Positions 25,528 through 29,619 of a stretch of 64,000 bases of DNA are shown in pieces. The stretch covers positions 186,001 to 250,000 of the forward strand of contig NZ_NQKY01000002.1 of NCBI RefSeq assembly GCF_002252675.1. The letters are read 5' to 3'. The position numbers were made by a program, and so were the translations under genes. The notes beneath the pieces are model-generated. The model searched no databases, was not told the DNA's origin, and worked only from the letters and a program-made list of their open reading frames with translations. This stretch comes from Synechococcus sp. BO 8801 (GTDB lineage: Bacteria; Cyanobacteriota; Cyanobacteriia; PCC-6307; Cyanobiaceae). Numbering within the stretch: the first letter of the stretch is position 1; each line of letters starts with the position of its first letter.

Positions 25528-26421
25528 TCAGCGCCGCAGCAGCCCTCGGACCCGGCGCGCCACCTTCCGGGTCAGGTTGAGCAGGGGCCAGAGCAGGGAG
25601 AGGGGAAAGGGCTGGCGAACCAGCGGGGTTTCGGCCTTCCGGTAATCCTTGTAGAGCCGACGATGGGCGTTCGGGTCTGCCGAGCCATCGAAGACGCTGT
25701 ACTGCAGACCGATCTCCTCGCTGCCGACCAGGCGCCGGTGGGGATGGGCCGCCAGGATCCGGTGGATGCTCTGGGTGTAGACGACCGGGCCGGTGGTGCA
25801 GATCACCGCCTCCCAGGGATTGGTGAAGGCGAAGGGATTGAAGCGATCGATGTTGCTGAGTACCGCAGCGATCACGGCGGCCAGATACGGATGGCCCGGA
25901 GAGGCGATGACGTGCCACTGCTGGAATTCGCCGCCCGGGATTCCGGCCAGTCGCCGGTGGGTGCCCCAGCCGGCATGGGGACTGCCGGCCCCATGGTCCC
26001 ACTGGCTCAGCAGGAAGGCATCATCGTCGCGCAGCCCCTCGGAGAGCGGCCGGGTGACGCCGACCTTGACGTCCAGATAGACACCGCCGAAGTGGTAGAT
26101 GCACAGATAGCGGAACAGATCGGCCCGGGCGGCACCGTAGGCAGGATCGATTCGCTGATAGCGGGCCAGGATCGCCTCGCCGTAGGTGTCGCCGATGAAG
26201 CGCTCACGATCGTGATCGTCGTAGAAGCGATAGCTGAAGTCCGGGTTGAGGGCTTCGATCGCGCGGCAGTTCTGTTCCAGCACGGCCGGCATCCGGCTCC
26301 TGGTGCTGAAGGTCTGGTGGATGATCCTGGGGATGCCGCGGCTGGCCGGAGGATGGGAGGCCAGGGACGCCCCTGAAAGCAGCCACGCGCTGGCTCGGTT
26401 CACCCCGCTCCGCCCCTGCAT
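25528..26421 (-). CDS. DXD-motif glycosyltransferase (OCH1-like)
   Basis: 297 residues from ATG 26421, preceded by GGGGGAGA; ATG 26433 is an alternative. The family of sugar-binding-region/DXD glycosyltransferases is shown by PRIIHQTFSTRSRMP, NPDFSYRFYDDHDRERFI, and ARADLFRYLCIYHFGGVYLD followed by VKV (the DxD site). Later FTNPWEAVICTTGP fits too. It probably adds a hexose to a surface glycan. It opens the third glycan island, directly after the carotenoid oxygenase gene (convergent, 30 bp). Confidence 0.85.
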   Translation of the reverse strand: MQGRSGVNRASAWLLSGASLASHPPASRGIPRIIHQTFSTRSRMPAVLEQNCRAIEALNPDFSYRFYDDHDRERFIGDTYGEAILARYQRIDPAYGAARADLFRYLCIYHFGGVYLDVKVGVTRPLSEGLRDDDAFLLSQWDHGAGSPHAGWGTHRRLAGIPGGEFQQWHVIASPGHPYLAAVIAAVLSNIDRFNPFAFTNPWEAVICTTGPVVYTQSIHRILAAHPHRRLVGSEEIGLQYSVFDGSADPNAHRRLYKDYRKAETPLVRQPFPLSLLWPLLNLTRKVARRVRGLLRR

Positions 26422-26462
26422 CGTCTCCCCCATCGTCCAGCCGTGACAGGACCGCGCCGGCC

Positions 26463-26627
26463 TCAGCCGCGCGAGAAACGGGTGAAGGTGGCGGGGGAGA
26501 AGAGATGACCTTCGGAAAGGGCGATGGCGACCACGGCATCGGCGTCGGCGGCTGCATCCACACGGGCCTTGAGGGCCGGATCGGCGGCCACCTTGGCGAG
26601 GAAAGCGTTGAGCTGGGATTTGGACAT
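26463..26627 (-). CDS. Nif11-like leader peptide protein
   Basis: 54 residues: MSKSQLNAFLAKVAADPALK, then an ADADAVVAIALSEGHLFSP core, ending RFSRG. The start and the ADADAVVAIA..G.xxS pattern are the Nif11 signature, the leader type of cyanobacterial lanthipeptide and other RiPP precursors. Typical precursors end the leader with Gly-Gly followed by a core of 20-40 residues; here the protein stops at SRG with no core. It could be a stand-alone Nif11 protein or a precursor that lost its core. No lanthionine synthetase or peptidase is in the window. It sits 41 bp upstream of the DXD glycosyltransferase start, same strand. Confidence 0.75.
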   Translation of the reverse strand: MSKSQLNAFLAKVAADPALKARVDAAADADAVVAIALSEGHLFSPATFTRFSRG

Positions 26628-26709
26628 GGGACCATCGACTACTGACTCTCTCTGTCCTACTCCATTCCGGAGCGCGGCCCGGAGCCTGATCTCTCGTTCC
26701 GTTCCTGCC

Positions 26710-27006
26710 ATGGCCTGGTTCATCAAGACCGAGACCTTCCGGCTCCCCCATGATGCGGTGATTGCTCACCTGCAGGAGCACCGCCTCTGGGTAGAGCGGC
26801 TGCGCTTGGAGGGCTGCAGGATCAGCAGCGGGTATCTGGTGGACGACCAGGGGCGGCCCGGCGGCGGCGGCCTGCTGCTGCTCGAGGCCCCCGACCATGC
26901 AGCCGCCCTCGCCCTGGTGCTGCAGGATCCGATGGTGATCGCCGGTTGCGCCCACTGGCAGCTGCAGGGATGGCGGCCGGCGGTGGGGGACTTGGAGGTG
27001 CGCTGA
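26710..27006 (+). CDS. YciI-like (YCII-related) protein
   Basis: 98 residues. Ferredoxin-like small protein resembling the YCII family: MAWFIKTETFRLPHDAVIAH, then GYLVDDQGRPGGGGLLLLEA and DPMVIAGCAHWQLQGWRP. The GCAHW..QGWRP ending resembles the conserved DPF...G.....EI.P region of YciI proteins. The function is unknown; the fold suggests a small-molecule enzyme or ligand-binding role. It is divergent from the Nif11-like gene (82 bp) and convergent with the next glycosyltransferase (8 bp). Confidence 0.7.
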   Translation: MAWFIKTETFRLPHDAVIAHLQEHRLWVERLRLEGCRISSGYLVDDQGRPGGGGLLLLEAPDHAAALALVLQDPMVIAGCAHWQLQGWRPAVGDLEVR

Positions 27007-27014
27007 CAAGCGCA

Positions 27015-28301
27015 CTAGCGATCCATGCTGGAACGGTCCAGCCCAAGAGCCTGAGCAAGTGCTTCTCTTGATTGCATGTTGATTGACTCCGCTGTTTTTG
27101 TCGCCAGCGAACCATCCTTCATAGCTGCGATCGGATCCGCAAGTCTGGAGATCACGCCCTCGGCAAACTCTTCCTTTGAATTTGCGATCAGAATTCCTTG
27201 GCCATGATAAGCATCAAGACCGCTGGAGCCGCATGTTGTTGAAACGACGGAGCGTCCGAATGACAAAGCTTCAACCGTCTTGATCTTCAAGCCAGTTCCC
27301 AGGCGTATGGGATTGATAGCGAAGAGGATCTGTGAATAGAATTGGGACAGTGATGGAACATTCCCAACGGGCTTCACGCTTGCACTTTCAGGGATTTCAT
27401 TGCCGGCAGAACCTGCAATCAAGAAAACAGCATTGGGTTGCTTGGCTCTGATGAGCGGCCAGACGTCGCGCAAAAACCAATGCAGACTTTCCAGATTGGC
27501 CGAGCTGTCGGAGGCAATGTAGCCAAAGGTGCTGATGGCGTCTGGAAGAAAATCCAATGGGCGGATGTCTGTGAAATGTCCCACGGTGAAGACGGACCGC
27601 TTGCCATGGGTAAGCCTGGCAAAGAATTCGGATTCTTCGTGTTGAATTCCCAGAATATGGTTGGCTCTGAGGAGGCCTCTGCGTTCGTCTGCTTTGTAAA
27701 TGGAGTACCACCAGGACTTTGATTCTTCATTGCTTGCGATATCGTTTCTGCAGGTGAAGATGTCGTGGCAATCGAGAATCTTTAATGTTCTCGCCGGAAA
27801 AGCGTCCAAAAAGCCAGATGCGAACACATAGGCGGCAACAACTCGCGTGTAGTTCTGTTGCTTCTGAAGCCTCTTGGCCTGTTTCGTCCAGTCGGGATGA
27901 AACCACCCATCCAGACGGTGAATTCCTTGGCTGTGTCTTTCCCGGCCTCTGCGAGTAAGTCGTAGTAGAAGGTGTCTGGCTTTGCTGAGAGTCACACTCC
28001 ATCTGTTGGCCGTTCGTTCATTCCAAAGAAAGTCCTGGGCCCATTGGTCAACAAACGTGTGAGTTACCTCCCTTGCCTCGGGAGAAAGTCGTGCCCAGGT
28101 TGTTTCATCTGGAATCTGAGCCCAGGCAAAATGCACCTCCAGCCCCATGCGCCTGAATTCTTGCAGAAGGGTTTGTAATCTTGTTCTGTTTCCGCTATGC
28201 GGTGGTCCGCACCCAATCGGAGAGATTACAAGCACACGACGATCAGAGTTGGAGCCAGGCTCAGCTGGGCTGATGCGCCTTCTGATCAATGGAGGAGTCA
28301 T
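27015..28301 (-). CDS. Glycosyltransferase, GT4-like
   Basis: 428 residues. GT-B glycosyltransferase: N-domain starts RRVLVISPIGCGPPHSGNRT, with LKILDCHDIFTCRND, and the C-domain runs FTDIRPLDFLPDAISTFGYI to NPIRLGTGLKIKTVEALSFG followed by RSVVSTTCGSSGL. That last block is the nucleotide-sugar binding region. It presumably extends a surface polysaccharide. Base composition is well below that of housekeeping genes (AT-rich codons such as AAA, GAA, ATT are common), suggesting transfer. GGAGGA precedes the ATG, a clear ribosome-binding site (on the minus strand the bases are less ideal). Confidence 0.83.
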   Translation of the reverse strand: MTPPLIRRRISPAEPGSNSDRRVLVISPIGCGPPHSGNRTRLQTLLQEFRRMGLEVHFAWAQIPDETTWARLSPEAREVTHTFVDQWAQDFLWNERTANRWSVTLSKARHLLLRLTRRGRERHSQGIHRLDGWFHPDWTKQAKRLQKQQNYTRVVAAYVFASGFLDAFPARTLKILDCHDIFTCRNDIASNEESKSWWYSIYKADERRGLLRANHILGIQHEESEFFARLTHGKRSVFTVGHFTDIRPLDFLPDAISTFGYIASDSSANLESLHWFLRDVWPLIRAKQPNAVFLIAGSAGNEIPESASVKPVGNVPSLSQFYSQILFAINPIRLGTGLKIKTVEALSFGRSVVSTTCGSSGLDAYHGQGILIANSKEEFAEGVISRLADPIAAMKDGSLATKTAESINMQSREALAQALGLDRSSMDR

Positions 28302-28386
28302 TGAACGATGAGTCCCGCGAATGACATTTTAGTGGCCACTGGAGGTGCATGGAGCTGTCGACTAAATCGATTGTGATCATATGTCT

Positions 28387-29619
28387 CTAGCATGGGTGGA
28401 AAAATCGTTCAAGCTTTAATCTGAGGATGTCTATGGGGACAATGATGTCCGCACGCTTAATGGGTACCCAAGTGGATAGCGGCCCAGGCTCTCTACCCAT
28501 GACTCGAGCGTAATTCAGTTGGCATACTTTTGCAAGACCACTGAAATAGGGAGGAGAGTAGTTTCGAGGAGTCAGCTCCAAAAGGGTTGTGCCGGGCGCG
28601 CTGAATACCGCATTGGCGAGGCTGGCACCGTGAATACCTAGCAGGAGATTTGCGGAGGAAGCAAGGCGAACCTGATCAGAAAAGGAAAGGGAGCCACAAT
28701 CGATGCATTGAATTCCATAGCTCTCTAGAACAGAATAAACCTCCTCCGCGTTCACTATTCTTCTCGTGGCAGGGAAGTGACGATCAAAAAAGATCGGCGA
28801 TGAAGGAGTCGTCTGTGGTTTTCGAAGCTGACGCAGGAAGTCAATGGCCCATGGAGTGTAGGTGCGATTTGCACAGGGTATGGTGGTCAACACAAGTTCT
28901 TCGGCCAAGTAGTTCTTGCCTGGGCTGATCCCGATGATTTTCTGGGGGGGGATGCCTAGGAGAGATAGTGACTCGGATTGAAATGGCTTGATCGGACCTT
29001 TGACGAGAACATTGTCGATCTCATCCATGCGGATGCATTCGCCAGCGATTCTCAGAATTGGAAGGTACTGAAATAGCCAGTGATAGTAATTGTCGCTCCA
29101 CGGCCCAGTGAGGCACAGAGAGCGTCCATTGATGATGACGGACTCACCATGAATGTCATCACGAAGCTGGGCCTCATTGTGATAATCAATCTCTGTGGAC
29201 TCAATGGTATGACCATCTGAGCGCTCACGCCATCTCCCACAAAGGTAGTGCCCGTGATGAAGAATGGAATCTCCGCTATTGACGAGCACTCCGTCCTGGA
29301 TGATTATCTGACCCTGAATGGATTCAGCATCGGCGTGGAGAACGCGATCTTTAGGTCCGATGCCTGCTGCAGGGCCACGGTTCGTAGCTTGGAGTCGTAC
29401 AGCGTTGAAGATCACCTGTTCGCAGGGCGGGTCACTAGAGTTGAGCTTCTTTTTTCGGCGTACCAATTCTCCAAGGTACGCGTATGCATGCATCGTGTAG
29501 ATAGTCAGGAGAAACTTATATCCATGGGACTGTTCCTGGCTGGCTCTCCAGAGCGATGCCCAGAGCCGACGAAGGATGGCCCGGGGTAGACGGACAAGGT
29601 TGGCAAGGGTTGACATCAT
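28387..29619 (-). CDS. Glycosyltransferase family 61 protein
   Basis: 410 residues. The GT61 (formerly DUF563) pattern is clear in the C-terminal half: LTGPWSDNYYHWLFQYLPIL, the PLTT-like LVLTTIPCANRTYTPWAIDF, and LLGIHGASLANAVFSAPGTT followed by LLELTPRNY. GT61 enzymes add xylose, GlcNAc or related sugars; the substrate here is unknown. About 60 N-terminal residues are helical with no clear signal peptide. Two ATG codons (29619, 29616) start it. AT-richer than average, in the third glycan island, same strand as the GT4-like gene 85 bp downstream. Confidence 0.85.
   Translation of the reverse strand: MMSTLANLVRLPRAILRRLWASLWRASQEQSHGYKFLLTIYTMHAYAYLGELVRRKKKLNSSDPPCEQVIFNAVRLQATNRGPAAGIGPKDRVLHADAESIQGQIIIQDGVLVNSGDSILHHGHYLCGRWRERSDGHTIESTEIDYHNEAQLRDDIHGESVIINGRSLCLTGPWSDNYYHWLFQYLPILRIAGECIRMDEIDNVLVKGPIKPFQSESLSLLGIPPQKIIGISPGKNYLAEELVLTTIPCANRTYTPWAIDFLRQLRKPQTTPSSPIFFDRHFPATRRIVNAEEVYSVLESYGIQCIDCGSLSFSDQVRLASSANLLLGIHGASLANAVFSAPGTTLLELTPRNYSPPYFSGLAKVCQLNYARVMGREPGPLSTWVPIKRADIIVPIDILRLKLERFFHPC

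Follow-up and report, generated by a model that had tools for sequence, protein, structure and literature searches.

Identification of a 54-codon Nif11-domain gene

The analysed window (the whole stretch of 64,000 nucleotides from Synechococcus sp. BO 8801, contig NZ_NQKY01000002.1, positions 186,001 to 250,000) carries a short Nif11-domain gene on the minus strand, extending from 26627 to 26463, with an ATG start codon at 26627-26625 and a TGA stop codon at 26465-26463. The translation of 26463-26627 (minus strand) is MSKSQLNAFLAKVAADPALKARVDAAADADAVVAIALSEGHLFSPATFTRFSRG, a protein of 54 amino acids. The features considered in this study, with positions in the window, were as follows:

26463..26627, minus strand: 54-codon Nif11-domain gene, stop codon included (translation; Pfam E-value 7e-14; genus orthologs in 36/42 genomes)
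26463..26495, minus strand: C-terminal end, residues 45-54 and the stop codon, with R50, R53 and a predicted fourth helix at 45-53 (50 copies; AlphaFold2)
26657..26659, minus strand: TAG triplet, promoter-like, located 32 bases ahead of the ATG (footprint test with shuffles)
25528..26421, minus strand: DXD glycosyltransferase gene, downstream, strain-variable, judged to be outside the system (Pfam Gly_transf_sug, 5.3e-8)
26710..27006, plus strand: YCII-domain gene, divergent, next to the Nif11 gene in only some genomes of the genus, judged to be outside the system (Pfam YCII, 1.1e-6)

The Pfam scan of the protein returned Nif11 as the sole family. The PF07862 match covered residues 1-45 of the 54 and scored 52.3 bits (E-value 7e-14; curated cut-off 23.8). 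The NCBIfam model TIGR03798 ('leader_Nif11') was matched with 42.5 bits (cut-off 32.3), residues 1-44 being aligned to model positions 1-44 of 68. As the match was confined to these positions, the Gly-Gly part of the model, i.e., the cleavage segment, remained uncovered. The C-terminus of the protein reads ...RFSRG, without a Gly-Gly motif and without a core. These results bore out the preliminary description of the locus, which had reported a 54-residue Nif11-like peptide at 26463-26627 that ends at SRG and carries no Gly-Gly core peptide. A longer reading from a TTG start (an ORF of 87 amino acids) was also considered and disfavoured, since the upstream triplet described below would lie inside the extension and the sequences preceding the ATG differ widely among loci.

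Distribution and selection

Orthologs extending to residue 53 or 54 were found in 36 of the 42 genomes of the genus, the window's own included, with scores of at least 48.3 bits and E-values of at most 3.2e-12; the next match reached 38.2 bits. The 54-codon ORF is a real gene, as full-length orthologs in so many same-genus genomes place it far beyond chance. The ortholog was missing from the remaining six genomes, three of which are at least 90% complete, and the gene is thus dispensable to the genus. In a sample of 300 genomes of the family, 88 carried a full-length ortholog scoring at least 73.6 bits, each as a single copy and spread over 13 of 59 genera, and a clear gap separated this ortholog floor from the next match (58.6 bits). 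In a phylum sample of 386 genomes, in which the same family was included, 17 had a match at an E-value of 1e-12 or lower, and every one of them belonged to the same family; 11 of these matches scored at least 79 bits across at least residues 2-53. A tblastn search for a phage origin among 50,697 phage records gave zero matches at an E-value of 0.01. The 54-residue family is therefore clade-restricted, and it is new among the known but uncharacterised core-less Nif11 proteins. No account of it was found in the open-licence literature (subscription journals were outside the scope).

The gene is under purifying selection. The dN/dS values against the window copy ranged from 0.02 to 0.37 across 21 named relatives, with L093 excluded from the comparison owing to a one-residue deletion. 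In nine near copies, pN was 0.058 and pS 0.487 for residues 1-44, and pN was 0.148 and pS 0.336 for residues 45-54. Both parts are thus constrained, the C-terminal ten residues less so. The peptide is neither absent from close relatives nor random in them, being conserved in 36 of the 42 genomes.

The C-terminal end and the predicted fold

The end of the protein was studied in 50 distinct full-length copies, a set drawn from a part of the loci and not from all 88 family-sample orthologs. Forty-eight copies were 54 amino acids long, one was 53 and one 55, and no extra copies appeared when the length limit was widened from 40-70 to 40-300 amino acids. The pattern used to collect the copies fixed S2, K/R3, Q5, L6, F9, G40, F43, S44 and A46, so that invariance at these positions is uninformative, and permitted four residues at position 41; it left R50 and R53 free. 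Both arginines were nevertheless present in 50/50 distinct copies, unconstrained by the pattern. Among the 48 copies of 54 amino acids, 73% ended in Gly and one contained Cys. Gly-Gly was found in 0/50 copies, while GA or AG pairs were present in some, their starts confined to positions 14-39, inside the domain. Excerpts of PMC2887384 describe Nif11 precursors with a ELSDEELEAVAGG-like segment and a Gly-Gly cleavage motif. In the protein studied here, a Gly-Gly type cleavage motif after a ELSDEELEAVAGG-like segment is absent and the chain terminates at residue 54. A Cys/Ser/Gly-rich low-complexity core is likewise absent, the part following the domain consisting of a short conserved end.

The AlphaFold2 model of the protein had a mean pLDDT of 89.8 (79 for residues 51-54) and contained helices at 3-15, 17-25, 29-38 and 45-53. 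Based on these predicted helices, together with the invariant arginines, the near-fixed length and the lack of Gly-Gly, the C-terminal end is most likely the fourth helix of the fold and not a core. The suggestion in the preliminary description that the peptide is a reduced RiPP precursor is unlikely, given the two invariant arginines, the near-fixed length and the purifying selection at the end.

The top fold match in the PDB was the Nif11 leader of MppE (9zn4, determined by NMR), with a TM-score of 0.57 by query length; the match was weak (Foldseek E-value 1.4). In a second fold comparison, 9zn4 gave a Z-score of 3.9 (rmsd 2.7, 49 aligned residues), on a par with an arginine-repressor chain (3.8), and a sequence profile matched 9zn4 with an E-value of 3.1e-4. 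The other fold matches (nucleosome, CRISPR-complex, arginine-repressor and osteocalcin chains) were weak and unrelated. The TAL-effector repeats among the PDB profile matches were dismissed, as they were sums of many short sub-threshold matches.

The same data raise the main rival to a protein-binding role, namely a small nucleic-acid-binding regulator, in which the arginine pair of the last helix of the bundle would contact DNA or RNA instead of a protein. The presence of R50 and R53 in all 50 distinct copies would fit this reading, as would the second fold match, to arginine-repressor residues 16-62, which with its Z-score of 3.8 was tied with the Nif11 leader match. However, such low Z-scores are common by chance among small helical bundles, Pfam shows Nif11 alone, and the net charge of the protein is near neutral, with six Lys/Arg versus five Asp/Glu. 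We consider a nucleic-acid-binding function unlikely, although it deserves more weight than the other alternatives discussed below.

Gene neighbourhood and the upstream element

Five neighbouring genes were scanned with Pfam and NCBIfam: an RPE65-type carotenoid oxygenase (plus strand), the DXD glycosyltransferase (minus), a weakly matched YCII-domain protein (plus) and two glycosyltransferases (minus). None of the five (0/5) is a RiPP enzyme, in agreement with the earlier remark that no modifying enzyme lies nearby. The region from 25528 to 29619 in the window was seen as a strain-variable glycosyltransferase block between the RPE65 and RdgB genes.

The DXD glycosyltransferase gene begins 41 bases past the stop codon of the Nif11 gene, on the same strand, and this arrangement would suit a member of a glycan (exopolysaccharide) locus that is co-transcribed with the glycosyltransferase and serves it. 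A homologue also lies close downstream in L074, L075, L076 and L082. Across the 22 named ortholog loci, however, the glycosyltransferase was matched in seven and unmatched in 15 within the stretches covered (some of them short); of the remaining matches, that in L086 is more distant, and those in L087 and L088 are on the opposite side, beyond YciI. As the gene is unmatched in 15/22 loci and misplaced in others, the glycan genes form a variable insert beside a stable Nif11 gene, and a role in the glycan locus is very improbable.

YciI, in turn, was examined in the 36 genomes with an ortholog: it was adjacent in 19, within 6 kb in five, on another contig in nine and unmatched in three. It was also present in five genus genomes from which the ortholog is missing. 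In nine named loci, YciI and the Nif11 gene are direct neighbours. YciI as an obligate partner was rejected, the adjacency in only 19/36 genomes indicating a neighbourhood shared in part of the genus. The possible relationship of the peptide to the adjacent DXD glycosyltransferase and to the YciI-like gene, which had been raised in the preliminary description, was thus not upheld: next to the orthologs the glycan genes vary or are lacking, and YciI is frequently located elsewhere. In nine other named loci, a glycine-rich protein is encoded near the Nif11 gene (in L094 it was recognised only via matches of the others), which we take, from its RRM-like sequence, to be an RNA-binding protein. This arrangement is another sub-clade neighbourhood. 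The neighbours of the Nif11 gene switch between sub-clades, and the 54-residue family has no link to any fixed gene.

A short element is retained upstream of the gene. A TAG or TAT triplet starting between -38 and -26 was present in 22/23 loci, versus a mean of 4.9 and a maximum of 14 in 2000 base shuffles, a difference that is indicative only and overstated in strength, as the range of positions was picked post hoc, the shuffles were plain base shuffles and the loci are related. In the remaining 13-base upstream intervals, TAG or TAT was found in 0 to 6 of the 23 loci. The triplet was kept despite differing neighbours, in loci with YciI and RPE65 and also in those encoding the glycine-rich RRM-like protein. 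The natural reading of the triplet would be a -10-like promoter element, and the 54-codon gene probably has its own promoter.

RiPP machinery in the genome and the genus

The possibility that the protein is a RiPP precursor was examined against the enzymes encoded by the window's genome, which is 99.7% complete. The searches for YcaO, PqqD and SPASM covered this genome, while those for LanC and C39 covered the 42 genomes of the genus. No LanC-like match was detected in the window's genome at an E-value of 0.001, with one control genome and four genus genomes positive. At an E-value of 0.01, there was no match in this genome to YcaO (control positive in five genomes) or to PqqD/RRE (control positive in three). 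The LanM dehydratase PF13575 also gave no match, but zero control genomes were positive either and this result carries no weight. A single C39 match (24.6 bits versus a cut-off of 22) was located in a 1032-residue HlyB-type ABC protein of the type-I secretion kind. The C39-like domain lacks the Cys motif, as seen by eye in a MAFFT alignment with three Cys-motif C39 domains from relatives. The ABC protein (L101:757-3855) also has a cNMP-binding-like N-terminus ahead of the Cys-motif-less C39-like domain, by eye, and an ORF with RTX-like glycine-aspartate repeats (likewise by eye) is located near its gene.

One SPASM protein exceeded its Pfam cut-off and a second SPASM match fell under it. The former was under the cut-off of each of the best 25 of 84 matched NCBIfam models, several peptide maturases included; against the 'nif11-class peptide radical SAM maturase 3' model it scored 61.3 bits, with a cut-off of 725. 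In the segment L102:2040-5605, a pair of adjacent radical-SAM genes is accompanied by an ORF that is glutathione-transferase-like by eye. The third-position G+C of these ORFs is 0.38-0.41 versus 0.66-0.96 in the other listed ORFs, and the segment looks like a recently acquired island, to judge from its composition.

The ortholog was present in 3/4 genus genomes with LanC and in 33/38 without it, as well as in 16/18 genus genomes without a C39 match. Being about equally common with or without LanC, and present without C39, the peptide is independent of the LanM or C39 machinery. A lanthipeptide or prochlorosin substrate was rejected on the basis of the LanC-like, YcaO, PqqD and C39 genome searches. 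The earlier proposal that the peptide is the substrate of an enzyme encoded elsewhere was not supported: LanC-like, YcaO and PqqD/RRE proteins were not detected in the genome, the recommended search for LanM/ProcM and C39 genes yielding zero LanC-like matches and the one 24.6-bit domain without the Cys motif. RiPP machinery of most of the classes searched was thus not detected in the genome, and its radical-SAM/SPASM protein could be placed in no family.

A RiPP precursor reading would have to take the last ten residues as the core, and its maker would be another enzyme class, the radical-SAM proteins of the genome or an enzyme in the small part missing from the assembly. Such an arrangement could draw on the TIGR03798 leader model exceeding its cut-off, on the Ser and Thr residues in the C-terminal end, and on the radical-SAM/SPASM protein, which weakly matches several peptide maturases and lies beside a second radical-SAM protein. 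It is opposed by the lack of a LanC, YcaO or PqqD match or a Cys-motif C39 in a 99.7% complete genome, by an ortholog distribution over the 42 genomes that does not follow LanC or C39, and by the occurrence of Gly-Gly in none of the 50 copies and of Cys in one of 48. Moreover, the end is conserved, in contrast to the non-conserved core which, with a Gly-Gly motif, is described for prochlorosin precursors in excerpts of PMC10783134. We regard a RiPP precursor as quite improbable.

Comparison with other Nif11 proteins

Among the other Nif11 proteins of the window's genome, none has a Gly-Gly motif followed by a core. A second core-less Nif11 protein, of 71 amino acids and ending VTVTKQDIPGEYN (GEYN), is encoded at L001 (G000:C1:217880-218023, minus strand); its FSGDELLR segment is common to 28/29 Nif11 tree rows that are neither precursors nor orthologs. 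At L106:5529-5783 (G000:C3:67528 onward, plus strand), the region between the genes for an FtsH-type protease and a DUF427 protein encodes an 84-residue Nif11 peptide that contains a leader-like LSDEELQARAGA segment and has a short end. The peptide resembles a precursor whose cleavage site is degenerate. The genome also encodes a Nif11/cupin protein (TIGR03890, C35:64186, 218.7 bits) and a further weak Nif11 protein, the frame of which ends in GG with nothing beyond. In each of two related loci, L096 and L097, at least two Nif11 precursors bearing AGG motifs occur, and their cores differ; an in-frame stop interrupts the L097 match.

A tree built from 54 rows and 50 columns separated the 23 ortholog copies from the other Nif11 rows with 99/94 support, one long-branch row being misplaced; with so few columns and an unsettled bootstrap, only this main split is quotable. 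The L097 precursor was omitted from the tree because of its in-frame stop, L014 and L033 were missed by the search pattern, and L098, on a very long branch, was misgrouped.

The presence of Gly-Gly Nif11 precursors in L096 and L097 and the degenerate cleavage region of the peptide at C3:67528 could suggest that the 54-codon gene is a decaying relic of a RiPP leader after core loss. The purifying selection, near-fixed length, invariant arginines, kept triplet and single copy in 13 genera are the opposite of decay, however, and this origin is scarcely credible, even less so than membership of a glycan locus.

The protein shares its N-terminal Nif11 domain with the Nif11-like RiPP leaders (TIGR03798; ProcA, MppE), and its helical nucleus is weakly similar to theirs according to the predicted model. 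It differs from these leaders in lacking a disordered acidic segment, Gly-Gly and a variable core, and in having a conserved, predicted C-terminal helix with R50 and R53; its host genome has no match to LanC, YcaO or a Cys-bearing C39. PMC10783134 describes a 'group F' of Nif11 peptides from marine Synechococcus, which have a conserved GEYH/N end and a function stated there to be unknown. They resemble the 54-residue family as Nif11 peptides with a conserved end, and by eye the L001 protein is of this type, but the family is on a separate branch of the Nif11 tree and has another end. For marine Synechococcus, PMC3877281 also reports Unk10, a protein of 107-118 amino acids whose gene lies in the chromatic-acclimation island together with phycobilisome and chromatic-acclimation genes. 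On that account, it is similarly a Nif11-domain protein kept beside non-RiPP genes, but the 54-residue family is shorter (54 versus 107-118 amino acids) and linked to no fixed gene. The Nif11/cupin protein TIGR03890 is likewise a conserved Nif11 protein of the same genome, fused to a cupin whereas the family studied here is a bare domain.

Discussion

The evidence points to a Nif11 'structured nucleus' that stands on its own: a small protein of four helices, which would work as docking adaptor or regulator of a partner protein within the cytosol; we give this reading roughly an even chance. The proposal draws on the Nif11 leader of MppE, which, according to excerpts of PMC12715784, consists of a structured nucleus with a hydrophobic cavity and a disordered segment. 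In the same excerpts, the prenyltransferase MppC is modelled as inserting Phe340 and Trp336 into the MppE cavity, and changing both residues to Ala reduced its activity, with Phe340 as the main contributor. On the predicted fold, the 54-residue protein would correspond to the MppE-type nucleus alone, and a free docking domain is therefore proposed, one that would bind its partner via the cavity and the arginine pair. The Nif11 helical bundle would present a hydrophobic cavity, and the partner protein would place an aromatic side chain into it by analogy with MppC and the MppE leader, from which the cavity contact is borrowed. The additional C-terminal helix with R50 and R53 would provide a second, charged contact. 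With no disordered leader segment, cleavage site or core, nothing would be modified or exported. From the features described above, we infer that the triplet acts as a promoter element, that a partner protein exists and is contacted through the cavity, that the protein is cytosolic and that its role is regulatory. Of the preliminary suggestion of a stand-alone regulator, the stand-alone part was supported and the regulatory part is plausible.

These observations bear on the annotation of Nif11 proteins, which in 2010 were said, in the passages concerned of PMC2887384, to have no known function. In the picocyanobacterial genomes mined for one survey, the clusters with Nif11-related precursors, procA/syncA not included, numbered 206 (PMC10783134). 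As the 54-residue protein scores over the TIGR03798 cut-off, automatic annotation would be expected to list it among the RiPP precursors, and the family is probably mis-labelled in this way. The presence of such a conserved, core-less family in a genome lacking matches to LanC, YcaO, PqqD and a Cys-bearing C39 suggests that some precursor calls are wrong. The single-copy gene also offers a means to probe the function of the Nif11 domain without a core. More tentatively, and with rather less confidence than in the docking role itself, Nif11 may be an ancestral protein-docking module of cyanobacterial housekeeping from which the RiPP leaders were derived. The 54-residue family would then be a living non-RiPP member that controls a core enzyme of Cyanobium-type cyanobacteria through the same aromatic-binding cavity and its Arg-x-x-Arg end.
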